Shown: in pieces, positions 45,830 through 63,701 of the stretch
Numbering within the stretch: the first letter of the stretch is position 1
Layout of the letters: each line of letters opens with the position of its first letter
Origin: Malus domestica
Lineage: Eukaryota; Streptophyta; Magnoliopsida; Rosales; Rosaceae
Direction of reading: 5' to 3'
NCBI RefSeq assembly: GCF_042453785.1
Contig: NC_091673.1
Coordinates: forward strand, 255,501-319,500
Length of the DNA stretch: 64,000 nt
Translations under genes and position numbers: made by a program
The notes under the pieces: model-generated
Told to the model about the DNA's origin: nothing
Seen by the model: the letters and a program-made list of their open reading frames with translations, nothing else
Database searches by the model: none

Positions 45830-48174
45830 TCAAGCTCTCCCATCCCACTCTTCATAGAACTCTACAAGAAACTCCTCCATGAACTTGTGCCGTCTCTCAG
45901 CTCTCTTCTGCCCAGCCTGAAATCAATGGTCAAACCTCATATCACAAACTGAATGGATGATAATATACATACATATGTAATGCATGCAAATGAGGAAGAT
46001 TCCAAGTGAGGAACGTGTAATGTCATGTCCATGTTTCAACAAATTTACCTTTGTTTTCATCAAAGCCTTTAGCTTAAGAAGCTTCTCGTGAAAGTGATTC
46101 ACAGTAGTCTGCTCATCCTTTTTCATGTACTTTTCCTTGGATAAGTCACATCGTGGCAGAATCTTAGGATCATGTAGCACTCTGTTCCTACTTCCACCAA
46201 AAGTAAAGCAACGAGCAATTCCTGTGACCAAAAGACTACTTAATATTGTGCAAAAACAGTTACACCCACAGTTGCTCTTGAAGCAGTCATCCCAATTTTA
46301 AACTTACATAGAGATAGTAGGTAGACAAAATCTAATGTTTAGAATTATCAAGTACAGAGATTACCAATAGCACCAATTGCATCGAGACGATCAGCATCTT
46401 GAACAACCCCAAATTCTGGAGGAAAATCGTTATTTGTTCCTGCAAGCTCATCTTTGAAACCTGGAAAGTAGAAGTACTTGTATATCAGAGCTCATATGCA
46501 CAATAAGGTGCTTGGAATTAAACATTCTATTACAGCAAACAGCTACAAAGGGTTAACAACCACAATAACGTCCACAAAGGATAAAAAAAGGTCGTACCCA
46601 GTGCACAAGGCTCCCGCTTTACGCAGGGTCTGGGAGAGGTGAATGTCGGCTAGCCTTACCCCCATTTATGGAGAGGCTGCTCCCAAGGCTCGAACCCGAG
46701 ACCTACCGCTCATGGGCGAAGGCACTTGCCATCGCACCAAGTGCGACCTCTTGTCCACAAAGGATATTGAACAAAAATCAGAATTGCATAAATATTAAGA
46801 ACACAATGAAACTGAAAAAATTATATGGTTCTAAAGTGATATAAACCGTAAATGGAGAAAATACGGATGCATATATTGGTGCATGTGTGGAAACATACAA
46901 TATTTTCCTATGTAGAAAAGAGACATGGCATTTACATTTTGGCAGTATGAAATTCTGATTTAGAATACAGGATTAAACTCAAATGATTTTTACATCACGT
47001 AAGCAGAACAGGGGAGAAATAACATGACAGAAAGGAGCAGTAATCGGCTCACCCATTCCCTTGATGATCGTTATAATCTTCATTTTCTTAGTCTCATCTA
47101 TGCCCTCCTCATCGAGAAAGTTCTCAACAATTTTTTCCTCTGAGGGATCTCTACATTCCAAAAATAACATGAGGGAAACGATGAATCGATGGAAGAGCCA
47201 GACAAAACAACAGAAAAGGAAAATATAAGTTAAAGGAAACAAAGAATGAGAAACGTACAAACCTCAAGTACTTGTAATCACCTGCAGCAAGCAATCAACA
47301 ACTTGAATGATCAGTAGGCTATACCGTATCAGAACAAGAAAATAAAAGCAAAGCTGAAAAGATGCAGGAAGAAACATAGAATGAAAGCCACATAGAAGTA
47401 CTACTGCACGTAACAAGTAGCCAACAAGAAGATAGATAAAAGTAGACATTTAATAGGAATGGGTGCAGTGTGTCGCACATCCATTTATAAGCAAGCACAC
47501 AAAGATATGTTATAAAGTTTGGTTGTGAACACTAACTGACCTATATCATGGAGAAGTGCAGCCACTTCTATCTGTCGACCAAGAAAAGTAGAGTACAGAT
47601 TAACAATAATGTTATTTAAAAGGACAAAACTGATTACATTAACATTGCTGGCACTGTCATTGTATGCGGAACCGACTTGTATCAGAGAGCGTTAGTAATG
47701 TGATGAGCTTGGTATGTTTAGAAAGGGCGGTGCTATCCACTTTTTACCTTCCAGACACCTCTTGTTAATTTATATTCTTTGATATTCAATTCATTCCATC
47801 CGACTGCCGGAATGAGAGAGGGTCGGGGGATAGAAAGTGGTGCATGGATAGCACCACCCCTAAAGAAATCTTCTTTTGTGAAGAACTCAACTGTTCAATC
47901 TGCAAATGTTGGCAATTCAGTACCAAAATCAAGCTTTAGATAAATTAATGCAATTGTTATTTTCCCTTTAAAAGTTACTGGTAGCGAGAGTAGGAGTTAC
48001 AATTTGCATGGAGTCGGAATTGGAAGAGAGGCCTTCTTCACGGGCGAGAGAGAGAGCGAGGTCTCGGACCCGCCACACGTGAGCAGCGTCGTGGGACGCG
48101 TCGTTCTCCTTCATGGCTTCCTCCACCAGCTTCTCCGCCTTTCTCACCGTCTCTTCCCATCCCAATGACCCCAT
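45830..48174 (-). CDS. HD-domain metal-dependent phosphohydrolase (YedJ-like), 225 aa, 7 exons
   Basis: Exons (minus): 48001-48174, 47541-47571, 47263-47281, 47053-47150, 46365-46460, 46049-46221, 45830-45916; total 678 nt with GT-AG borders and unbroken phase. The HD-superfamily metal site is complete: His32 (SHDAAHVWRV), His66-Asp67 (LLHDIGD), Asp131 (QDADRLDAIGAIG). The closest bacterial family I recognise is YedJ; the plant substrate is unknown (nucleotide or other phosphate esters are the usual class). Exon 3 is a 19-nt microexon encoding GDYKYLR together with its neighbours. An in-frame ATG further upstream exists, but the ATG at 48174 begins family-like sequence (MGSLGWEETVRKAE). Intron 4 holds an Au-like SINE, and a large Helitron starts about 340 bp upstream of the start codon. 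Confidence 0.93.
46584..46753 (-). mobile_element. Au-like tRNA-derived SINE
   Basis: Minus-strand orientation: a tRNA-like head with box B GGTTCGAGCC (in TCTCGGGTTCGAGCCTTGGG), then the Au-type body ending CACTGGGTACGACCTTTTTT. A perfect 13-bp target duplication TCCACAAAGGATA flanks it (46571-46583 and 46754-46766). Located between exons 4 and 5 of the HD-domain gene. The undamaged duplication suggests a fairly recent insertion. Confidence 0.9.
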
Positions 48175-51104
48175 CGCCTGCGACTGCCTGCTTTTCTTCT
48201 CTCTCGCCGCCGCCGCCGCCGTGGCTGGGTGAACTGTTGTTGGAGGTGAAATTTGTAGACAAACAGGATATGAATAATGGAGTGAGGACGGAAGGGGATG
48301 AAGTGAAGTGAATCTGAATAATGGAAACAAGTCAACGGTCAACATAATACAACACAACTGACTGCCATGACATGACATCTCCTTCGTCTCATACAACTCG
48401 AGTTAGGGTTCGTAGTTCGTACCGAATCAGTCGGAGCGTGGGCTGTGCCGAGGCCGAAACGGATCTGTGGATCTCAACCCACGGCCCACGTTTTTATCTA
48501 TATATTTTATCAAATTATACCTATACTAAAACCCCAAAACCGCGTTACTGTTCACGGACAGTGCGCGGACTAAAATACCCCTCGATTTGTTTGTTAAGCC
48601 AAATTTTTGCCATCTTTTCCACAGTGAAAAGACTGCCTTGCCCTCGAAGGCCACGCGTTGATCCTTTCCTGTTTCGATTTCTTTGGATGCTCTTTCCTTT
48701 TTTCTAAATTGTTGTCGCCGTTCTCAGCCATTTTGGGATTAGCTTTCTTTATCTCTCAAACCCTAATTTTTCTCCCTTTTGAATCTCATCTCTGTCCGCT
48801 CGCGCCGGTCAATCGGTTTATAAAAATTTCCTCTGTCCGGTCGCTGTCGCTGCTTCGTATAAAAAGTTAGCTTTGCTGTGGTGAGGCATGGTCTCGAACC
48901 CTAATTTTTCTACCTTTATGTTCTCATCTCTCTCTGCTCGCTCCGAACGGTTCGTTTGTAAAAATTCATCTCTGTGCCGTCGTTGTCACTGCTTGGTATA
49001 AAAAGTTGGCTTTGCTGTCTTCAATTCCTTTTTCGTGAGTTTTGTGATTTCCTTCTGTCTACAGTTTTTATTTTTTTTATTTTTTTTATTTTTGATATGT
49101 TTACATGCGTTTTGTCTGTCAATTTTTTTTTTCTTTTCTAGATATCGTTTGGACCGATGGTGTGAATGTGTTCTTTGGTTTTGTTTTTTATTTCAGAAGG
49201 TGTGGCTGTTCTTTTTTTTTTTTGACCCTTTGTTATCTGCTGTTGTAACATTTTTCATGATTTCTGGAACTTGGGTTTTAAACAATTGGAGTACTACTAG
49301 ATTCTTATCATTATGTGCAAATTACTGGTGATTTGGATTGCTGCCTGAGATTTAGAGAATGGCTTGCAGCTTTAATTTCTTTTTGCTTCATTATTACTGT
49401 TTTCAATTTTTTTTATTGCTGGTTATTGATGATTTGTAATCTGTGAGAGCTTCAATCTGTTGGAATTTTGGGTTATTGCTTCATCGGAATTTGGGTGGTC
49501 CAAAATTTGAATTAGAAGAAACCCATTTGATTAATATTTTTGGTGGATTGACTCTCTCTGTGTTTTCTCTGTTATTTCTTGCCCAGTTGGAAAGTGGAAG
49601 CCCCAAATTTGAGCTTAGAGCTTTAATTTCTTAATCATTCGTTTCTCTGCACTCTCATCAGTCAGTCTTGATACTCTCTCAGAGGAGCCTACATATTTAA
49701 ACGTGTTGCTGGTATGTGATTCTCGCTCCATCTCATCTTTTTTTTTTTTAATCTTACTGGGTAATTTTCAAACCTTTTATAGTAGTTTTCCAGGTCTGTT
49801 AAATAGTTCTCCATTTGATTCCAGTTGATTGCTTAATTGAGGTTTTTTGTTTCTATTTTTCGCTCTTTCATTAGTTCATTGGCTTTCATGTTGGGCTTAA
49901 GGAAATGGGAAATCATTAATTGGCATTGTTCAAGATATGATTCTGTTTTTTTATTTATTTGTGAAACGATTTGGCTGATGAAGAAAGTAGTTTTTTGCAT
50001 ATAGATTACACACATATGGGCTGATCTATCTTTCCTAATAAATTTCCCATTTGTTTCAGGTATAAAATTTTCTCATCTATTTGCAAACAAGTTTGGGTAT
50101 GTTCTTACTTCTCGCAAAATGTTTTGTTTTTAGTAATTAGGCAGGCTTAATGTATATGACATTATTTTTGTTTTTGGCAGCAAATCACAGTACAAAGGTG
50201 AGCCAATTATTCTCATGGTCTTCATTTTTATAATTTATTTCCTTGGTTAATTTATTAATCTTAGTGAAGGTGTAATTATTGTGTAATTAACTTTTTTTCT
50301 TGATTCTATTCCTTTTATTTATGTGATTTTAAGCGGTGGGAAGCTGTTGCATACCTTGCATGCAATAAGTATAAAATTTGATGTCTTTTTATGAGCTTTC
50401 CCAAACACCCCCCCCCCCCCCCCAAAAAAAAAAATTAGTGGAAATGCTCAATCTTTTTGTTTACAAAGGATATCTCCAATTTTGGCTTGGGTATCAGGCC
50501 TTCTTAATTATCATCTATTAATCTTTCCATTCATAGTGAAGCTTAATTTTCAACCTGTTTTGGGGTGGCCACGTGAACCATTCTTTGTCTTTCTGTTCAC
50601 CAAGCACATTTTCATCCTGAATGTTATTTGTACACTGTTTGTTTTTTCATGTGTGTCGATTTTGTTACCGATGATTTTTTTTATTGATATAATGTGATGA
50701 TTTCTCTTGACAAATACAGGTGCTTGAAAAATTTCAACTCTGCAAGTTGGAAAAAAAAAGAGGGTTTCAAAATACTGTGCTTTCACGCTTTGGCGTCTTT
50801 GTCTTTGTGTTTGAAAGATTTCTGTAATAAAGGTGAGTGAGCTAAAATTTTGGAATTGTTAAGATCAAATTTTAAGTATTTGTTTCGATTTTGTTTTATA
50901 AAGTATGAATAAACTTGGTATTTCCTTTAACTTTAATTGTGTTTAAATTGAAATCCTAATTTTGATGGTTTGTTCATAATTAATGTTTGTTATGTTTTTT
51001 TGCTGTGTGATTTATGTGTTAATTTTTTTTCACTTTTTTTTTCTTTTTTTTTTCCAATCTTTTTTGCAGCTCTTCGCTTTTCCTCATAACAATTTGTTTT
51101 CAAC

Positions 51105-54100
51105 ATGTCTAAAAGATCTATAAATGCGTTGGTCAATGATGATAACAACAAAAAACAAACAAATAGTGATAATGAATATAATGTCTTGGTTCAGTGTGAC
51201 CATCAGCCAAGAAAAGTGTGTAGAACCAGTTATCTTGAAAATCATGAAAACGCTGTTTTATCTCAGATTGATACATTTCTTCGAACTCCATATTTTAAAC
51301 ATCAGTGTAGTAGTAGTGGATCAGCTGTTGTACAATGCGATTTGAAAAATGCTAATTATGATAAAGTGCAGCATACTGCATCTGTTGAAAAAATTGTTCA
51401 GCCTTCTGATCGAAAAGGTAAAAAACCTATTAATTTGTTGGATAATTCTGATAACATGGCTGAAAAAACGATTGATCCTCAAAATTACAATCTTATGAAC
51501 AAGGGCCAAGCATTCTTCCAGAAAAGCAGAACTGGTATGTTTTTTAATTTATATAAAAATATATTTCTGTTATCGTGTAAATTTATATTTAGTTTATTGC
51601 ATATCTTTCCTAAGTCCCGTTTTCTTTCTTTTCTTTCCTGTGTATTTTTTTTGCAGGGGTTTTAAAAGATTACTAGATATTTGTGCCCGCGCGTTACTGC
51701 GGGATTGAAAATTTCATGAAAGATTATGCAACTTCATTCTCTTCGTAAGCAATGTTTGAGTTAATTTTGTTCCACTTAAGCAGCAATGAGAAATTGTAGA
51801 AATTGTAGAAAGGCAGAATTAACGTATGCCAAATGTATTTCAATGGAACTAATTATATAGAATTGGGAAGTCAAATAAATCATATATAGCCACAAAATAG
51901 TAACAGGTACAGATGAGATTAATCAACATCTACCAAATCAAAAGTAGATGTGGAAATTGAAATAATAAACCTTGTTTTCTGTTCAAAAAGTCATGCAACA
52001 ATGGGAACATGACTAACCAGATAGAACTGTGATTAACTCACTTCATCCGTAAACAAAAGAAACCCAAACCAAGTTCAGCAAGAATTATGCACGACCTTTT
52101 TGAAAACTATATAATGAATTATAACAAATTGTTAAACAAACATGGACCGGAGGTTATCTTAAAATTCATTTAAATGGAAAATGGTAAATTTGGTTCACTT
52201 GAGATGCTAACCTTTCAAAATGCGATACTAATATAAGTTGCATATTAGGATGAAATGCATTAACGCTTACACTTCATAAAAGAAAAAACCAACAAAATTC
52301 TAATTTGTTTTTCTACTCAATGTTCCAGGAAATTGCCTAAATAGCAAGAACAATTGCACATGGAGCCTACCTTCTGAGTAGCACTTAAAAGCTCTCTTTG
52401 AACTCTCCTGTGCTCATATGAGAGGGAATTTTGTCGTCGCTCAATTTCAAGTCTAGCCTCTCTTTCCATAATGAGAGATTCCATTGCAGCCTGATAGACA
52501 TATTCAAACATTTAATAATGTACAGAAGTTACCTAAATTCAGCCACAATGAATATCAAACCCATCTACTTACCATCTTATCCAACTCTTATTTCGTAAAT
52601 TTCTCTTGTAAAGAAGCATAGTTTTTCTTGAGCCCCGCAATAATCTAATTCAATTCTTCTTCCTTGCTTTTCAATAAGATCCCTATTATCAAACAAACAC
52701 AATTACTGTAGTAAACAACTTCATTGAGGATTCAAACGCACAAAATATGTTAATTCATACCCATTTCATCGCGATGCCGCTCTAACCATGAAAAATTAAA
52801 ATTATAATCACTCAAATCAATTACAGTATATCACAAACTATGTCATCTAATAATCAATAAATTTAAGAAAATTTAAAATGAAATCAAAATCTTTAAATGT
52901 CCTAATTTTCTCAAATCTCAGAAGCCAAACAATATAAAAAGAAAGAAAAAAAAAAGGAGACGGATGAGAAGTGAAGGTTGAGTAACTAACTTGTCAGGAT
53001 TTGGATAAGAGGCAGGAAGAGAAGGCCATGATCGGAACGCAATCTTCCTCTTCTTCTTGTAATTTCTGTTTCTCCTTTCAGATTTCAAATACAAAACGAC
53101 CCATACTTAAATGAACTTAATCCCTGTAAAAAGTTTGGTATAAAACTTTCATGACACTTCTATAAAAATCCAGCATGCATGGTTCTTTTAAAATCAAAAA
53201 AAGGAGACGGATGAGAAGTGAAGGTTGAGTAACTAACTTGTCAGGATTTGGATAAGAGGCAGGAAGAGAAGGCCATGATCGGAACGCAATCTTCCTCTTC
53301 TTCTTGTAATTTCTGTTTCTCCTTTCAGATTTCAAATACAAAACGACCCATACTTAAATGAACTTAATCCCTGTAAAAAGTTTGGTATAAAACTTTCATG
53401 ACACTTCTATAAAAATCCAGCATGCATGGTTCTTTTAAAATCAACACATAACTTCATATTAAACTTGTATAGACACAAACTTAATCAATTGATTTATATT
53501 TAAATAGAAAGAATGTAGTGGTCAGTTTTACCTATATTTTGTTTGTTGTCACTCCATTTCTATTTTTAATTAAAAGCTTGTAACTTATACGCATTTGCTT
53601 ATAATTTTTACTTCCCTTCCCTTCCCCTGCTGCATAAACAGTAGAGTAGCCCTCGTTTACCTACAACAAATCGAAAACCATTTGGAGAAAATAACTAAGC
53701 ATTTGGTTATTAGATTCTTAGTAGGCAAAGCAAGAAAATTACACATAACGAAACTATTGAAACTTTAAAACCCACTTCCCAAATTAGGTTCTCAGACTGG
53801 CTAATGAGCATATTGATTTTAAACTATCATCCCAAACCTACAATGCATGAGGTTTTTTATTTTTTATTTTTTTGGACAGTGTAATTAATCATTTTTAATA
53901 GAAGAATACAATTCATATAACAATAATTAGTAGAGAAAACGAACGCAGTAATGTAAAAATCATGGGGTTACTTAAATTTTGAGGGCTTAGGAGGCACCAA
54001 GTTCCATTTTTAGTCAGAGTTCGAAACTGAATTTGAGACTCTTATAGGTTCTTGTTAACAAACATAACATGGTGGACCAAATTAAAAACATATTTAAACC

Positions 54101-57100
54101 AAAAATTATAATATGAGTTTTTCTAATTTTTTCTATAAGAATTCTCATAACTCTAAACAAAAAGAAAAGTTCACCGCAAGGTTGGAGCTAACTGGGGTCA
54201 ATTCTCCTTGCTCTGCAATCACACAAAACAAAAATCAAAGTTCAAAACTTAATATAACCTCATCAGCCAATTCAAAGTCCAAACAATTAACTAAAAAAAT
54301 CCAGAATTTATAAAGTGAAAACCATAATTATTGAGGTTAGATTGCAGGACAACCAACCTCTACTCGTTTTCTGGCAAATTTGGGGTCCTTTGATTTCTAG
54401 ACTTTGAGTAGAAACTGATTATACCATGGGCTAATATTCAAGTACCACAAAATATAATTTTATCGTAGTAAGCTTTTCGATTCACTCCAAACGAAGGTTT
54501 TATATGTTCACATACATATATTCACAACCATAAGAAAGAAGAAAACAACTCTTGGTACAGAGCAAAAATGAAGCACTAACGGATTCCCACACACCAAACT
54601 TTGAGAACAAACAAAAACAGAACCAAATTATATAGCAGCATGCAAGTCACGAAGGAACAAAGAAAAAAGAATACTCATTTGCAAATCCAAAATTAGAAAA
54701 AAGAGCATAGACAAAACTGGAAAACTCACCACAAAACGCTGGTCGTCGGAGTTTTTTTTTTTTTTTTTTTTTGGCAACGAAATTGGAAAATCTGAAAAAA
54801 CTTGTAGCCGCAATTTTTCAGCAACAAACCTTCGGCGTCAACATTTTATAACAGAGACACACAAAAGTTGGACACGAAGAGAAAACGATGCATTGAAAAT
54901 TCTGGAAAAAAAAAGGACTTACAGTGACGGACGGCGGAGGACAGAGCAACAATCGCGACTCAGAGAAAACCCTAGCTTGATCCACGCCGCTAGTTTTGGA
55001 CAGTGTAGAAATCGAAGGAAAACCCAAATCCAAGGAAAAGCAAATGGCTTTTCGAATTCCATTTATTTATTTATTTTTATTTTTCTAGAGTTTGGCCACT
55101 GTGATTTATAGTTTTTGAGAGAGAGAACTGGAGAAATTTCTACTGGGTTGGTCTTTTTCAGCAGGAAAGTGAGAGAGAAATCGAGATCGGAGAGCGAGGG
55201 AAGGCAAGCTTTAGCAACATAAGGGTTTGTGGGAGAGATCGAAATGGATGGAAGGCTTCTTGGGTAGAGAAAGAAAGCATGAGAAAGAGTGAGAGATGAG
55301 AGAAGACCGCAAAGTGAAGGAGAGTTAGAGGAAAAGTCGAGAATGAGTCGAAGCAGAGCCCTTCGACGATGATCGACACGTGGACAGGATGATTGAAGAG
55401 GAGGTGTGCAGAGCGATGAACGCGTGGGCAAAAATTAGAGGAATTGCGAGGAATGACGTGCGGAATAAAGGAAAGACGTGATGAACATTGGTGGGGAACT
55501 GTTCCAGATGTCATGATGTTGTTTTTTTAATTATTTTTTTTCTGGTGATGGACACCCTCTCTCACAATCCATGCTCAGCTTTTGTTTCTCTCTCTCTTTC
55601 TTTTTCCCCTTTTCTATCCATTTTATTCTGCATGTTCCAGATTTTTGGTTTTTTAATTATTTTTTGGTGGAAAGGCATGCATCATTGCTGCCAGATGTGG
55701 ATCAGGTATGGTTTTTTAATTATTTTTTTATGGAAAGGCAGGTACCATTTGCTGCCAGGTGTGGATTAGGTAAGGGAAAAACGCTGGAATCGAAGAGGGA
55801 GTCAGAATTTAAAAGAAGATACACATGATGAACAGTAGCCCTCTCACAGGATGAACAGTGGACGGGAACTGCTTTAGTAGATAGCTACAACAATATAGAA
55901 AAAAAAAAGGAAACAGGAAAGTATCAACCCGTGGCCTTTGAGGGCAAGGCAGTCTTTTCACTGTGGAAAAGATGACAAAAATTTGGCTTAACAAACAAAT
56001 CGAGGGGCATTTTAGTCCGTGCACTGTCCGTGAACAGTACCACGTCGTTGGGGTTTTAGTATAGGTATAATGTGGATTTTGGGGATAAGAATTATAAATG
56101 TAGTCACTGCGGTGCCTATTTTTGGTTGAAAGAGTCTCTTAAGCAAGTATGTAAAAAAGATGAACCTATTCTCACTCTTTGTTGTCAACAAGGAAAAATT
56201 GCTTTTCCAAATCCAAAACCAACACCGCCTTTTTTAGAATCTTTGCTTGATCCAAATGGTGGTCCAAAAAGTTTATCATTTCGAGAAAATATTAGAGCTT
56301 ACAATTCTATGTTTTCATTTACTTCGATGGGAGCCAAAATTGATCACTCAATTAATGATGGTTCAGGTCCTTATATTTTCAAAATTAGTGGTCAAGTTTG
56401 CCATTTGATGGGATCTCTGTTGCCTGCTGACAATGAGTGTCCAAAATTTGCACAATTATATGTCTATGATACATACAATGAAGTGCAAAATCGATTGAAG
56501 GCTTTTGAATCTGATGGAAATAATAGAAAGCTTGATCCAAAAATTGTTGAAGGTTTGATTAAGATGTTTGATATGTCAAATGAGTTAGTTAAGCTTTTTC
56601 GAACAGCAAGAAATAAGTTTGAAACTAATAGACTCACTTCTTTGAAAATGAGATTATCAGCAAGAGAAACAACAGATGGTAAACAATATGACCAACCAAC
56701 AAGTGATGAAATAAGTGGTCTGATAGTTGGTGATATAGGACTTGCTGATTCTAATAGAGATATTATTATTGAGTCTAAAAGTGAAGGATTAAAGCGTGTT
56801 ACAAAATTAAATCCAAAATTTATGTCTTTGCAATATCCTCTTCTTTTCCCATACGGTGAAGATGGTTATAGACCTGATTTAAAATGGAACAAAAATTATA
56901 AGGGTTCAGAGACTAAAAGACAAAGGATACCCATGAGAGCTTTTATAGCGTATCAAATTCAAGAACGAGAACCATGCTTAACAACATTGTTAAAAGGGGG
57001 GAGACTTTTTCAACAATATTTGGTTGATTCTTATGCAACACTTGAAGAAGATAGGTTAGATTACATTAGGCAAAACCAAAAAAATTTAAGAAGTGAAGTT

Positions 57101-60100
57101 TACAAAGGAATTTATGATGCGATGTCAAGGGGTGATAATGATGCAAACAATTTGGGACAAAAAATTGTATTGCCTGCTTCATACACAGGGAGTCCTAGAT
57201 ATATGATTAATAATTATCAAGATGCAATGGCTATTTGCAGAGAATATGGACATCCTAATTTATTCATAACATTCACATGCAATATAAAGTGGCCAGAAAT
57301 CATAAGAGAATTTCAGAAAAAACCAGGATTCAAACCTGAAGATAGGCCTGATATAATTTCCAGAGTATTTAAAATGAAACTCGATGATATGCTTCACTTT
57401 ATAAAATCTGGAAAACCTTTTGGAGAAGTTGAAGCAAGTAAGTCTCTAAGAGTCCTTCTTTTCCTTTATTAATGTTTATTTATTTTTTTCTGACCTAACA
57501 TAATTTTTTTTCTCTGTTTGTTTGTTTTCTTTTATTTTTCTTATAAACAGATGTTTGCACGATTGAATTTCAAAAAAGAGGTTTGCCTCATTCTCATATA
57601 TTAATATGGTTAAAATCAAACTTCAAGTGTCATTCCTCATGTGATATAGATTCTATTATTTCAGCTGAAATACCAGATAAAATTGTTAATCCAAAGCTTT
57701 ATGAAATTGTTAATCAATTTATGATTCATGGTCCATGTGGTCACATTAATTCAAAGTCTCCTTGCATGCGAGAAAATAAGTGTTCAAAAAATTTTCCAAA
57801 ACCATATAAAAATGAAACACTATTTGAGCCTAATGGTTTTCCAATTTATAAGCGTTGTGACGATGATACAAAATTTTTCATAAAAAATGGCATCAAAATT
57901 GATAATAGCTTTGTTGTTCCTTATAATGCAGAACTACTTTTGAGATACAATGCTCATATAAATGTTGAATCATGTTGTCAATCTATGCTTATAAAGTATT
58001 TGTTCAAATATATTAATAAAGGTTCAGATAGAGCACGGTTACTTCTTCAAGAAGATTCAAATGATGAAATATTAGCATATCTCAATTGTAGATACATATC
58101 ACCATATGAGGCTGTTTGGAGATTGTTCCAATATTCAATACATTATAGAGAACCTTCTGTTGAGCGATTACCTGTCCATTTACCATTAGAACAAAACATT
58201 GTTTTCAGTGGTAATCAATCATTGGAATCAATTATTAATCAAAGAGCTTCTGAACATACTATGTTAACAGCTTGGTTTGAAGCAAATAAAATTTATAATG
58301 AATCACGCTTGCTAACTTATGCTCAGATGCCATCCAAGTTTTTATATGATGGACGACAGAAGTTTTGGAAGCCAAGGAAACACAAAGGATCAATTGGTAG
58401 GATAGCATATGTGCACCCTGCATCTGGTGAGTTATATTATTTAAGAATGCTTTTAAATTTGAAAAAAGGTGCATTGAATTTTGATGATATCAAAACTGTT
58501 AATGGTGTTCTCCATTCTTCATATCAAGCTGCATGTAAATCATTAGGATTATTAGGTGATGATAAAGAATGGTTAGATGCTTTATCAACTGCTACACATG
58601 TTGCATCATCTCCTCAGTTAAGACAATTATTTGTTACAATTGTTTTGTTTTGCGATGTTGCAAATCCTGAAATTCTTTTTGATACTCATTGGAAAAATAT
58701 GTATGACGATATTTTATACAAGCTGCAAAAAACTTTTGCAATTCCTAATATGATTGTTCCGGAAGATGAACTAAAAAATTCTGTCTTATTTGAGCTAGAA
58801 TTACTTTTTAACAATGCATCTAGCTCTTTGCAAAAACATTGTTTGCCAATGCCTGATGAAAAAAAGATGCTAGAAATAAAAAATAAACTTTTAAGAGAAG
58901 AATTAAATTATGATTGTCAAGAATTATATAGAAAACATGAAATATTGAAATCACAACTTAATGAAGAACAAAAATATGTATATGATACTGTTATAGATAC
59001 TGTAAATACAAGAAAACAAGGATTATTTTTTGTCTATGGCCATAGAGGTACTGGAAAAACATTTTTATGGGATACAATTATAAGTAAGCTTAGATCTGAA
59101 GGCAAAATTGTTTTAGCTGTGGCATCATCAGGAATAGCATCATTATTATTACCAAATGGTAGAACAGCTCACTCTAGGTTTAAAATTCCGTTGGTTATTA
59201 CTGATACATCAATTTGTCCAATAAAGAAAAAAACTCATCTTGCCACATTAATTGAAAAAACTGATTTGATTATATGGGATGAGGCACCTATGAATCATAA
59301 ATATTGTTTTGAAGCATTGGATAAATCACTTTCTGATATTCTATCACATTTACATGCTCCGAATAACATTGTTCCATTTGGTGGTAAACCCCTTTTATTA
59401 GGAGGTGATTTTCGACAAATATTACCTGTTATTCCTGGAGCAAACAAAGAAGATATAATAAATGCTTCTTTAAACAATTCTTATTTGTGGCCACATTTTA
59501 AAATTTTTCGTTTAAAAGAAAATATGAGGTTGTTAAGAAATGATATAAGCATTGATGAAAAACAAAAAATCAAAGATTTTGCAAATTGGATTTTAAAAGT
59601 AGGTGATGGAGAAATTGATAACATAGATGCACTAAATGATTCAAATGACATTGATACATCTGTGATTGAAATACCTAAAGATTTAATAATCCATTCTTCC
59701 ACAAACCCAATTGCTGCAATCTCTTGTGCAACTTTTCCCAATTTTGAAAATTCTTTTGACGATTTTGTATATCTAAGAGAACGAGCTATTATTACACCTC
59801 GAAACACAACTGTGTCGGATGTAAATGATTATATAACTAATTTATTACCTAGAGAACATCATACATTTTTAAGTTATGATTCTTTGTGTTCTTCAAATGG
59901 AAATTTTGAAAATCTTGAAACAATGTATCCTACAGAATTTTTAAACAAACTTGATTTCAACGGTTTGCCTACACACAATCTCATTTTAAAAGTGGGAATG
60001 CCAATTATGTTATTACGAAATTTAAACCAATCTTTGGGTTTATGCAATGGAACTAGATTGATTGTGACACAATTATTTGATAGAATTATTGAGGCTAAAA

Positions 60101-60432
60101 TTCTTGCTGGAACTAATATTGGTCACAAAGTTTTCATACCAAGAATCACTCTTGCAGCAACTGAAAGCAAATGGCCTTTTATTTTAAAAAGACGCCAATT
60201 TCCAGTTAGACCATGTTATGCAATGACCATTAATAAAAGCCAAGGACAATCTTTGAAACAAGTTGGATTATATCTTCCTGAACCTGTTTTTACTCATGGT
60301 CAATTATATGTTGCATTATCTAGAGTTACATCAAGAAAAGGTTTAAAAATATTGATAGGAAATGGAGAAAACAATTTAAACAATTATACAAAAAATATAG
60401 TATTTAAAGACGTGTTACAAAATTTACAATAA
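51105..60432 (+). CDS. Helitron Rep-helicase (RepHel), about 1564 codons, exon 2 split by a nested Helitron
   Basis: Exons: 51105-51534; 51657-51672 continued at 56071-57437; 57551-60432. Donors and acceptors are GT-AG and phases agree; the sum 4695 nt is a multiple of three with no internal stop seen. Domains: N-terminal region with a zinc-finger-like C-x2-C (CSHCGAYFW), the Helitron_like_N Rep domain with the HUH motif RGLPHSHILIW (His618, His620) and the tyrosine helix KYLFKYINKG (about 753-762), then a Pif1-type SF1 helicase with Walker A GHRGTGKT (about 1102-1109), Walker B LIIWDEAP, QILPVIPG and a C-terminal INKSQGQS/YVALSRV. Rep nicks and joins DNA for rolling-circle transposition; the helicase unwinds it. 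The nested element at 51673-56070 lies between two codon halves of exon 2, so this copy cannot give a normal mRNA unless it is spliced out. Confidence 0.88.
51673..51710 (-). other. 3' terminus of the nested Helitron (hairpin plus CTAG)
   Basis: Stem CCCGC(A/G) paired across a short loop, 12-13 bp before the terminal CTAG, the standard Helitron termination signal. On the plus strand it begins CTAGATATTTGTGCCCGCGC. Confidence 0.9.
52317..52511 (-). other. Coiled-coil exon-like fragment in the nested Helitron, possible gene capture
   Basis: Minus frame contains AAMESLIMEREARLEIERR and then SLSYEHRRVQRELLSATQK, highly charged and helix-forming, unlike transposon proteins I know. Nearby minus-strand segments at about 52575-52690 (SKEEELN, GLKKNYASLQEKFTK) have a similar character but stops interrupt them. 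Splice-like borders are present. Source gene not recognised. Confidence 0.45.
52955..53443. repeat. Tandem duplication, 247-bp unit, two near-identical copies
   Basis: Copy 1 from 52955 and copy 2 from 53202, both starting AGGAGACGGATGAGAAGTGA and running to CATGGTTCTTTTAAAATCA. I saw no differences over most of the length, so the duplication is recent. It contains the exon-like segment encoding RKIAFRSWPSLPASYPNPDK on the minus strand. Confidence 0.92.
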
Positions 60433-60839
60433 TTTGTTTATAATCATGAATACATATTGAGCAATTTATATAGTTATCATTTGATCACCTTCTTTTGTTA
60501 AATACTTTCTTACTGCTACATTAATATTCTTACCCACTTTTGTTCAACCAAATGCAGGTTACCTTCATTGGAACTACTGTTTTTAGTTTGCTTACATAGG
60601 AAATAAATGCTGCAATTGCACATTGATTTTAATTATGGTAAAGCCTCAAAACTATTCCATCTGCCTATCCTATTTTTTAATATTTCCTTAAACATATAGT
60701 ATATATCCATTTCCAATTTTCTACCTAAATTAAAAAAAGAATTCAAACATTTTCAAAGAGATTAAACATGTTCTAATAAACAAAGTTTTTACAATTGCTT
60801 TTTCAATGTACAGTGAGATGTTAACCTCTTCCTCCGCAG

Positions 60840-61099
60840 ATTCAATGAAAAGAAGACACATGACAAATTCAACAACCAAGTTGCAGCTACAACAAATATG
60901 TTTAAGCACGGTATAAAAGCAAAGATTATTAGGTATGGCCTAAATCCTCAACTACAATGGAATGACTTAATGGTATGTTTTTCTTAACTTTCTTTTCTTT
61001 GCTGATTCCCGTTTAAATTCAATATTTACTAACCTTTCTCTTCAGAGGAATTCGTTGCTACCAATGTATGTATATACAAACGATCTTCTTTTTACCTAA
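60840..61099 (+). other. Two exon-like segments in the Helitron 3' region, possible captured gene end
   Basis: Segment 1 (60840-60972) lies between CCGCAG and GTATGT borders and is open for 44 codons (FNEKKTHDKFNNQVAATTNM, then KIIRYGLNPQLQWNDLM). Segment 2 (61046-61099) follows CTTCAG and continues in phase as RNSLLPMYVYTNDLLFT with a stop. Phase agreement across both borders suggests the last two exons of a gene taken up by the Helitron. The protein is not recognised; chance is not excluded. Confidence 0.4.
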
Positions 61100-61318
61100 T
61101 CTGAATACATAGCTTATTCCTTGCTTGACCATTGATGAGTTAAGGGGGACATATGTACAAAGTATATCTTCAATGAGAACATCTTCATCTATACTTTTGT
61201 ATGTCCAACTCAAACCTCTCATTAGACAACCAACCAATTAGCCATGTGTTCACAATACGTCAAAAGGAGAAAGTTTTTGTGTATAAATTGGTAGCAACCA
61301 ATTCCTCTGAAGAGAAAA
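61035..61318. repeat. Inverted repeat (about 35-bp arms, about 215-bp loop)
   Basis: TTTCTCTTCAGAGGAATTCG then TTGCTACCAAT at 61035-61068 recurs as its complement at about 61283-61318 (ATTGGTAGCAACCAATTCCT, then CTGAAGAGAAA). It overlaps the second exon-like segment, so that exon start exists in both orientations. Confidence 0.8.
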
Positions 61319-62391
61319 GATGGAAGTGATGATTATTTCTCCAAATGATGAAGGCTGAAATAACTCAGCATACTTTGTCTCTATATTACAAAGAGGCATC
61401 TAACTAGCTATATCTGATCCATCTTTTTACATGTTTCACTTCACTTTTACAGATAAAATACTAATGAATTAACTCTTGATTAACAATGTCATTGTTTAAA
61501 TTATTTCAAGTGTTGCTTTTATTCAACCTGTTTGAATTTTGCCATTTACACACTCCTATAGGATTTTGGATTTTTGTGAATTTTCAAGATTTTCCTTGGC
61601 TTCAATTTTTCTTTTTCAATCTGTCTATCATGTTTCCATTGACCATTTCATCATTTTCGCCCCACAGTAAAATTACAATTATCAATATGGATCCTACCAA
61701 CAATGCATTGCCATATCGTTTTCATTTTTTTCCTGTTTTGTTATTTGTAGTTTTCGTTGTGTGATTAGTATAAGGAAAATCATATAAGATTTTGGTTTTT
61801 TGTGGGTTTTCAACTTTTTTCATGGCTTTTTGACCATTTAATTGTTTTTGGCTCCAAAGAAAATTACAGTTCTCGATTTGCATTCTTCCAAGGGTGCATA
61901 ACCGTATCATTTTCTCATTTTTGTTTTTGTTTTTCTGTTGTTTCTAATTTGCTGTGTAGCATTCTATTCCATGTACAAAGTTGAGCCTTTAATAAATTTA
62001 GTTATGAATGTTTTGTAAACATGGAAGACCTTATAAAACTCAATCATGTGATGGTGGAGCACTCTTTTGCTCCCAATTGAGGTTAGTGTTCTTTATTGAC
62101 TCTATAAAAGTTCAATGGTTGGATAAAGTAAACAGAAGATTTTTTTTGGGTTTGTGAATGAACAAGGAAAACAACGGAAATATAGGAACTTATATTAGAC
62201 TCTCAAAAATTTTCTTTAAAACATAGGTCAATTTTCTGTTTACTAACATCATAATACCTCTTCCTCTATTTGAATTTAATCCCTTTGTTCTCATTTTCTA
62301 TACAAATGGTTCTGCACCCTTCATTCAAACTTGATCATTCTATAAATATCTATATTATTTTATCCTTTTGAAACATATTTTCTCATACATT

Positions 62392-62428
62392 TTCTAATCC
62401 CGCAGCAACGTGCGGGCACTATTTCTAG
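62392..62428 (+). other. 3' terminus of the outer Helitron (hairpin plus CTAG)
   Basis: CCCGCA-GCAACG-TGCGGG stem-loop followed by CACTATTTCTAG; the next base is T. Confidence 0.92.
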
Positions 62429-63360
62429 TTTTTATATCTATTTGCTAAACCAAAAACCAAAAAAAGGCTTCTAGGTGGTTAACATTCAATTCTTCCATTT
62501 TTCACCATCACTTGTAGTTAAATATACAGAAACAAAACAAAACCCAAGAAAATGCAATAATTATAATTTATTTTAATTTAATTTAGTTAATTTATACGAG
62601 TGACTAAATAGTTTTCAATTTGATTTTATTCTTTTATACATAATTATGATATTTGTATGATAAAATGACGAGTAATGTTAGTTAGACCAAATTTGCAAAT
62701 GATTTGATGTGTAACTAATGGAAATAAGCTTGTTAACCAACCCTTAAGTAATAATTTAATTATCAACAATCACATCTTATGATTTACAAAATATGATTTA
62801 AATATATTTTATTTCACAAAAAATACCTTAAAATGACGTCATGTATGCCATCATTAAAGAAAATGAGTAATACTATACCTTTTAGCATTTTCATTATATG
62901 TGAAACGTGAACGTGTCAAACATGAAAGGTGTGAAATGTAATTAGTCCCTTAATTTAATTACTTATTTGGTAACATATTCGAAACTTAATTCGTCAACTC
63001 AAAACTAGTACTTACTATTTCACAGTTGGGTTTTTAGTTATAAACAACAGATATGTTTGTCTTATTTTTCCTTTTGTCCTTTGAGGCTTGGACATCTACT
63101 TCAAATCAAGCAAGACGTGAATGGCATGCAACCACACGTCTTAAAGTTCAAGATTTAAAATGCCCCAGCAGATCTTTAGAGATTACTTGTTAATAAATAT
63201 TTTTTTTTCTTTAATTTATCTGGAAAACGTTTTTATTAATGAAAGTAGCTGGAAATTCAGTGTCACATCATTGAACAAATCCTATATCCTTTTAAAATAT
63301 ATGAATAATATATTAGTTTCTCATAAGAAAAAAATATTGGAATTTCCTCTGGGATATAAT
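62429..63360. other. Intergenic, nothing recognised
   Basis: AT-rich sequence right of the Helitron. No gene, tRNA or clear transposon end seen. Confidence 0.45.
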
Positions 63361-63701
63361 GGAGGGTTTCAAATTCTAATTTTCCTTCTCTCATCTATCT
63401 TCTTACCCACCCTCACCACTAGGTTAATCTCAGTGACTTGCTAAAACTGTAAATTTGAGTTTGGATACATGGAGATGGAGGGTTTCGAACTCTTAACTTT
63501 CCTTCTCTCATTTATCTTCTTACCCACCCTCACTACTAGATTAATCTTAGTAACTTACTAAAATTGTAAATTTGAGTTTAGATAAATGGAGGGTTTCGAA
63601 CTCTAACTTTTCTTCTCTCATCTATCTTCTTACCTACTCTCATCACTAAGTTAATCTCAATGACTTACTAAAGCGGTAAATTTGATGAGTTTGGATAAAA
63701 T
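63361..63701. repeat. Minisatellite, three tandem units of about 111-116 bp
   Basis: Units begin GGAGGGTTTC at 63361, 63477 and 63588, each with TCTTCTTACC(C/T)AC and TAAATTTGAG blocks. Units differ by scattered substitutions, so the array is not new. Confidence 0.9.

Follow-up and report, generated by a model that had tools for sequence, protein, structure and literature searches.

What directs a Helitron to the exact base at which it inserts, and how does one member of a family come to lie inside another? Both questions are raised by a stretch of 64,000 nucleotides from the Malus domestica genome (C13:255501-319500, called the window in its full length), in which a presumably non-autonomous Helitron (the inner element) sits, in opposite orientation, within the Rep exon of a relative of autonomous type (the outer element). 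Searches covered the 651-Mb genome in 19 contigs, and the sites occupied by related elements show statistically that its Helitrons take as their target AHA|T N5-6 CTAW, the bar marking the insertion point, which is narrower than "AT". The nested insertion, this rule and a targeting of sites that resemble the elements' own left ends would probably be accounted for together, by one explanation. The nest itself is real and of an ordinary, known kind; the insertion rule is the interesting part.

The outer element begins with TTATACC at 48515, preceded by A, and its 3' end CTAG at 62428 precedes T. Read on the minus strand, the inner element starts with TTATACC at 56070 and finishes with CTAG at 51673, with A51672 and T56071 as its plus-strand flanks. 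A genome search with the outer ends recovered three further outer copies, on C11 (9,495 bp), C8 (9,489 bp) and C10 (9,500 bp), so that A and T flank all four copies. Counted as substitutions, divergence is 0.55-0.64% between these sisters and the window copy and 0.37-0.57% among the sisters themselves. None of them carries the inner element. Across its site they read GATTA|TGTGG, A joined to T (more fully, ..AAAAGATTA|TGTGGATTTTGG..), and the first Rep frame extends for 486 codons from stop to stop in each, while the second RepHel frame has 961 codons in two of the uninterrupted copies and 816 in the third. Because the three paralogs are uninterrupted and the frame is continuous at this point, the inner element arrived after the outer one, in the Rep exon and without target duplication, and its insertion broke the Rep gene of the window copy. 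The boundary between the two can be shifted by one base and no more, since the first T of the element is also the T of the target (A|TTATACC..CTAG|T or AT|TATACC..CTAGT).

An earlier note, made from the window alone, had described this locus as two Helitrons with related ends, nested in opposite orientation with all four termini intact, and had placed the inner one between an A and a T as the later arrival. Those descriptions hold: the termini lie where the note put them, and the A-to-T join appears in 3/3 uninterrupted paralogs. The note mentioned neither the break in the Rep gene nor the likeness of the site to the 5' end of the elements. An inner-free copy with flanks joined in any other way would have spoken against the note, and when the paralogs were inspected for it, C11, C8 and C10 all joined A to T. 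Its phrase "rare exact record" stands as to exactness, to within one base; rarity has to be given up, as nested or adjacent Helitrons are already on record for maize and Fusarium (PMC3288121, PMC2267711, PMC5148889; here and below, cited papers are represented by the parts of their text that were available). The nest is known from a single assembly, and one could suppose an assembly artefact or recombination between two elements. We find either scarcely credible given the exact termini at both junctions and a frame that is continuous at the same base in three other copies; nor is an entire element flanked by A and T the outcome one expects of recombination.

Kinship of the two elements is apparent at both ends. 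Each opens with TTATACCTATACTAAAACCCC, and the 5' ends form an inverted pair of 174 nt at 91% (48511-48684 / 55901-56074). Aligned directly, the left ends are 93% identical over 161 bp, in agreement with the proposal that the 5' terminus and its first 150 bp or so are shared, and the CCCGC-type hairpins seen ahead of both CTAG ends do fold, at -10.6 and -8.9 kcal/mol with RNA parameters. A pattern scan of the window returned only the ends of these two elements, two 3' and two 5'. On their shared left and right terminal sequences the elements are assigned to the same family, and an outer-type RepHel would be expected to mobilize the inner element. The outer element, with its HUH/Y2 Rep and PIF1-like helicase, is a member of the Helitron superfamily. 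Both elements end in the 3' CTRR of that superfamily, here CTAG, with a hairpin some 11 nt ahead of it, and the empty site in three paralogs displays insertion at A|T with no target duplication. The 5' terminal TC of canonical Helitrons is absent, both elements starting with TT (TA if shifted by one base), and because the empty site excludes TC under either base assignment, we do not file the element under the TC subset.

The target rule emerges from sequence on both sides of the insertion point. Among 33 unique 3' ends of the family, CTA starts 5-9 bases past the T in 29; windows of equal width further downstream contain it in a mean of 1.84 cases and a maximum of 5. Genome-wide, the 3'-end pattern GCAACGCGCGGGCA-N4-8-CTAGT occurs at 137 places, and CTAGT is followed by N5-8-CTAA in 73/137 and, at a control distance (N20-23-CTAA), in 1/137. 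Forty of these genome ends were inspected individually, namely the first 45 of 100 places listed among the 137, less five already met and with the flank disregarded in the choice. CTA begins 5-9 bases past the T in 32/40 (18 at offset 6, 10 at offset 7, 2 at offset 8 and 2 at offset 9) versus 6.7% of window AT sites. On the upstream side, hits without a match to one of three start strings were excluded before counting, which gave 36 distinct family 5' ends with A at -1 in 34/36, A at -3 in 34/36 and G at -2 in 0/36; background values at window AT sites are 34% for A at -3 and 17% for G at -2. In 11 complete elements, a set that omits C4_26565 (its 3' end was not found by the script) and the C6 inner copy (altered 5' terminus), AHA stands upstream in 11/11, with CTAW downstream in 9/11 and YTAW in 10/11. 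The joint motif AHA|T..CTAW fits 1.2% of window AT sites. Base composition might produce such a pattern without any sequence recognition if Helitrons simply favor A|T where the DNA is AT-rich and melts easily; Helraiser in HeLa cells favors AT with an AT-rich flank, chiefly on the 3' side (PMC4778049), and positions 1-5 past the T are AT-rich in this genome too. However, a C at offset 6-7 directly ahead of TA exceeds what AT-richness supplies, as both the 32/40 count and the control-distance comparison demonstrate, and we regard composition as an improbable cause.

Left ends in place read AHA|T-TATAC-CTAT-ACTAAAACCCC, which is to say that the elements' own left ends resemble their targets. In local alignment to the first 21 left-end bases, the 40 genome flanks score a mean of 14.6, where half of the window AT sites, taken at random, score 9.4 (p 1e-12). 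The reversed left end, a control of equal composition, shows no such likeness (10.3 versus 9.9, p 0.15), so that the composition account is already disfavored. The maize Helitron left-end consensus, TC[TC][CA]TA[CT]TA, has its YTA at offset 6 as well (PMC2267711). When the 2,049 AT sites of the uninterrupted C8 copy are ranked by left-end likeness, 10 lie above the site taken by the inner element and 4 are tied with it (rank 11th to 15th). Eight of the 10 belong to the left end of the C8 copy or to its 3' end together with the flank; the other two are inside the element.

In the usual model, the HUH/Y2 Rep makes one nick in the donor, at its left end, and another in the target, at AT. We propose that the two nicks rely on shared contacts, as their likeness would suggest: AHA 5' of the nick and T-N5-6-CTA 3' of it. 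RepHel would then read the consensus at its own left end as well (host AHA|T.., then CTA/ACTAAAACCC) and nick targets as pseudo-left-ends. If so, resident Helitron 5' ends would be favored, along with chance look-alikes such as TTTTAAAACCCC on the minus strand of the outer element's exon, and head-to-tail neighbors and nested copies would follow. At this locus, a RepHel Helitron inserted on C13, and a non-autonomous relative, probably moved in trans by the RepHel of a sister copy, later entered the other strand between A and T in the Rep exon. The proposal would cover both the landing of a non-autonomous copy in the gene of its likely helper, at TTTTAAAACCCC, and the maize order termed canonical by Du et al., in which the site consists of a host A followed by the first T of a resident Helitron. 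In its strongest form, plant RepHel would have one recognition mode (AHA|T N5-6 YTA) for left end and target, and its own left ends would be the best targets in the genome; we hold this form tentatively, as a serious contender that falls short of probable. It competes with the idea that the motif is real and stems from a separate RepHel target pocket, used for the target-strand nick alone, the left-end likeness being incidental. The TTCTATATATA sub-lineage, in which offset 6 of the own end holds no CTA and yet two of three complete copies occupy CTAW sites (C14_129 and C10_12734, not C15_2247), speaks for a separate pocket. The T-TATAC-CTAT of the family ends, the YTA of the maize consensus at offset 6 (PMC2267711) and the AHA that also precedes left ends in place speak for shared recognition, and we rate the separate pocket as possible but on the unlikely side. 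One recognition mode, if true, would supply a mechanism for Helitron clustering, head-to-tail arrays, doubled 5' ends and nested insertions that kill a helper, and a left-end-like consensus would link donor and target cleavage to one protein pocket. The target rule would also aid software that looks for Helitron ends, a 3' end becoming checkable against its flank.

Shared recognition would lead one to expect Helitrons at the 5' ends of other Helitrons, and all three other copies of the inner element (C10, C12, C6) adjoin such an end directly downstream. In a broader count, a Helitron 5' end in the same orientation is met by 11/75 ends (7/35 in the family, 4/40 in the genome set) versus 14/11,538 window AT sites under the same test. 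The test was devised after examples had been viewed, and one of its three alternatives fits only L136, without which the genome count drops from 4 to 3. A neighbor in the opposite orientation was met by 0/61 unique ends tested (35 family and 26 genome). Head-to-tail neighbors could in principle be rolling-circle concatemers or read-through products and not a matter of target choice. Head-to-tail junctions and tandem arrays have been cited in favor of rolling-circle transposition (PMC5876387), and the absence of opposite-orientation neighbors is predicted by concatemers as well. On the other hand, the three 5' ends adjoining inner copies differ from one another, their ACTAAAACCC cores lying 5, 8 and 12 bases beyond CTAG, and for one maize pair the authors concluded that insertion was consecutive (PMC2267711); concatemers therefore strike us as very unlikely. 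Another way to deny a general preference would be to read the downstream motif as remnants of older Helitron 5' ends, and 11/75 ends do meet a recognizable one. Once those ends are removed, CTA is still present in 23/28 family and 28/36 genome cases, so the target rule is not just a matter of Helitrons landing on Helitrons; the target of the inner element, moreover, is a Rep exon. Remnants have little chance of being the explanation.

Several junctions merit separate description. In those reading CTAG|TACATAT..CTAAAA (L064 184, L052), the 5' end of the downstream Helitron seems to be missing its opening bases, as though a newer element had landed inside the left end. The C10 inner copy (L074 start, C10:31297395) lies between two Helitron ends, preceded by a 3' end at a distance of 4 bases and followed immediately by a 5' end, with one orientation for all.

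A number of observations weigh against the rule or against its tie to the left end. The target of the inner element has TTAA and not CTAW, and thus fits only YTAW, which is present at 14% of window AT sites. One of the 11 complete elements has neither CTAW nor YTAW, and 8/40 genome ends have no CTA at the required spacing. The C11 and C10 outer sites are unremarkable in left-end likeness, with 30% and 13% of AT sites, respectively, scoring as high. In the related sub-lineage starting TTCTATATATACTAAAACCC, the terminus itself has no CTA at this distance. As for landing beside other Helitrons, the strict CTAAAACC core lies 3-16 bases past the 3' end in only 7/137 genome places, and the C6 copy, one of the three that adjoin another 5' end, may not be one element. 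Finally, all of the target counts come from the sequence of one genome.

The features of the locus are collected in Table 1. In the open-frame list for the window, no long RepHel-type frame was found in the inner element, and for this reason it is taken as non-autonomous. Its C10 copy has 4,153 bp and lies 0.9% from the window copy, and its C12 copy has 4,149 bp and lies 1.3% away. On C6, the 5' terminus is altered and the 3' piece lies ~4.9 kb from the body (C6:30016334-30021221), a gap that underlies the doubt about this copy being a single element. Divergence among inner copies is somewhat greater than among outer copies, which suggests, with no dates given, that the inner family is at least as old as the outer burst. 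Capture of gene fragments is usual for Helitrons. The segment at 52368-52781 is such a captured host fragment, with C11:31623998-31624411 as its presumed source; the matching strand on C11 encodes a peptide with the same block. The 247-bp duplication, perfect and missing from the C10 and C12 copies, is judged recent. In addition, three inner-like 3' ends occur within 64 kb at C9:10116444-10179575, possibly a local cluster or a duplicated block.

Table 1. Features of the nested Helitrons, with positions counted from the first base of the window
Feature	Position	Strand	Remarks
Outer Helitron, autonomous type	48515..62428	+	9,516 bp minus inner element; flanked by A48514 / T62429; three paralogous 9.5-kb copies with A..T flanks
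Outer left terminal sequence	48515..48680	+	Starts TTATACCTATACTAAAACCCC; at least 41 matching genome places
Outer upstream open frame (191 aa), putative	51090..51665	+	Left of inner element; without Pfam match
Inner target, left side	51670..51672	+	..GATTA, then CTAG of inner element; empty site in three paralogs
Inner Helitron, non-autonomous, 4,398 bp	51673..56070	-	5' end 56070, 3' end 51673; other copies on C10, C12, C6
Inner right terminal sequence	51673..51703	-	Hairpin CCCGCAGTAACGCGCGGG, then CACAAATATCTAG
Host gene fragment in inner element	52368..52781	-	414 bases; 90% to C11:31623998-31624411, 88% to C3 place
247-bp tandem duplication	52949..53442	-	Halves 100% identical; missing from C10 and C12 inner copies
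Inner target, right side	56071..56075	+	TGTGG; minus-strand target CCACA|TAATCTTTTAAAACCCC, sharing TAAAACCCC with the elements' 5' end
Rep part of RepHel, Helitron_like_N	56072..57472	+	PF14214, E 2.3e-44; frame starts a few codons left of inner element and is split by it
RepHel HUH (PHSH), Y2 (YLFKY), PIF1-like helicase	57547..60432	+	961 aa open frame; PF05970, E 3.9e-93; Pif1 2B domain PF21530, E 3.9e-23
Outer right terminal sequence	62399..62428	+	Hairpin CCCGCAGCAACGTGCGGG, then CACTATTTCTAG

Around the outer element, a region on C16 that is probably homeologous has flanks matching 48240-48307 and 62849-62904 only 279 bases apart (L097), colinear and too diverged for a base-exact join. 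Searches of this diverged region for ACTAAAACCC and CCCGCAGCAACG found no Helitron end in it, and the right flank of the outer element, searched alone in the genome, gave only repeat-like matches elsewhere. To the left, a minus-strand open frame (47968-48402) lies ~110 bases from the outer 5' end, and the outer element may thus occupy the region immediately upstream of a host gene. To its right, a 111-nt unit stands in three tandem copies (100, 86, 76%) at 63364-63701.

In the available literature text, Helitron target choice has so far been given as "AT", and the consensus described here is narrower. In rice and, less so, in maize, an A next to the 5' end and AT-richness on the 3' side are reported (PMC2575219). 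The motif AHA|T N5-6 CTAW was not met in the available literature text on Helitron targets, and no target motif beyond AT was found in the text available from PMC6591975 and PMC3789558; the sequence logos of PMC13286980, PMC4778049 and PMC2575219 might nonetheless display it. Since figures and Yang and Bennetzen 2009 lie outside the literature text covered, we do not claim the target motif as unpublished.

Among known systems, the prokaryotic IS608 and IS91 share their single-strand HUH chemistry with the elements described here, and the likeness between target and left end in Malus domestica is statistical and extends over ~12 bases. The target tetranucleotide of IS608 forms part of its left cleavage site. 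IS608 is site-specific (PMC5876387). Helraiser of the bat (PMC4778049) and Xuan-Feng of wheat (PMC13286980) have RepHel, the 3' hairpin, CTAG and insertion at AT in common with the Malus domestica elements. These two start with TC, whereas the Malus domestica pair starts with TT, and their targets are given in the available text as AT (with AT-rich flanks for Helraiser) and not as AHA|T N5-6 CTAW. In wheat, an autonomous RepHel element mobilizes a non-autonomous partner (PMC13286980). Helitrons that are nested or have multiple termini are reported in maize (PMC3288121), and in Fusarium oxysporum a non-autonomous Helitron is nested in a putative autonomous one and one was inserted 2 bp before the 5' end of another Helitron (PMC5148889). 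The likeness to these nests is that of a Helitron inside a Helitron; the Malus domestica case differs, as far as the available text of those papers goes, in having four intact ends, three uninterrupted sisters, a Rep exon as the site struck and a target consensus derived from it and its relatives. Maize Helitrons prefer sites near or inside other Helitrons (Yang and Bennetzen 2009, cited in PMC12477314 and PMC3288121), and one of the two orders that Du et al. propose for head-to-tail pairs is insertion at an AT made of a host A and the 5' T of the resident element (PMC2267711). The neighbors found here are likewise head-to-tail, and to the maize picture Malus domestica adds a predictive sequence rule that also applies to targets other than Helitrons.

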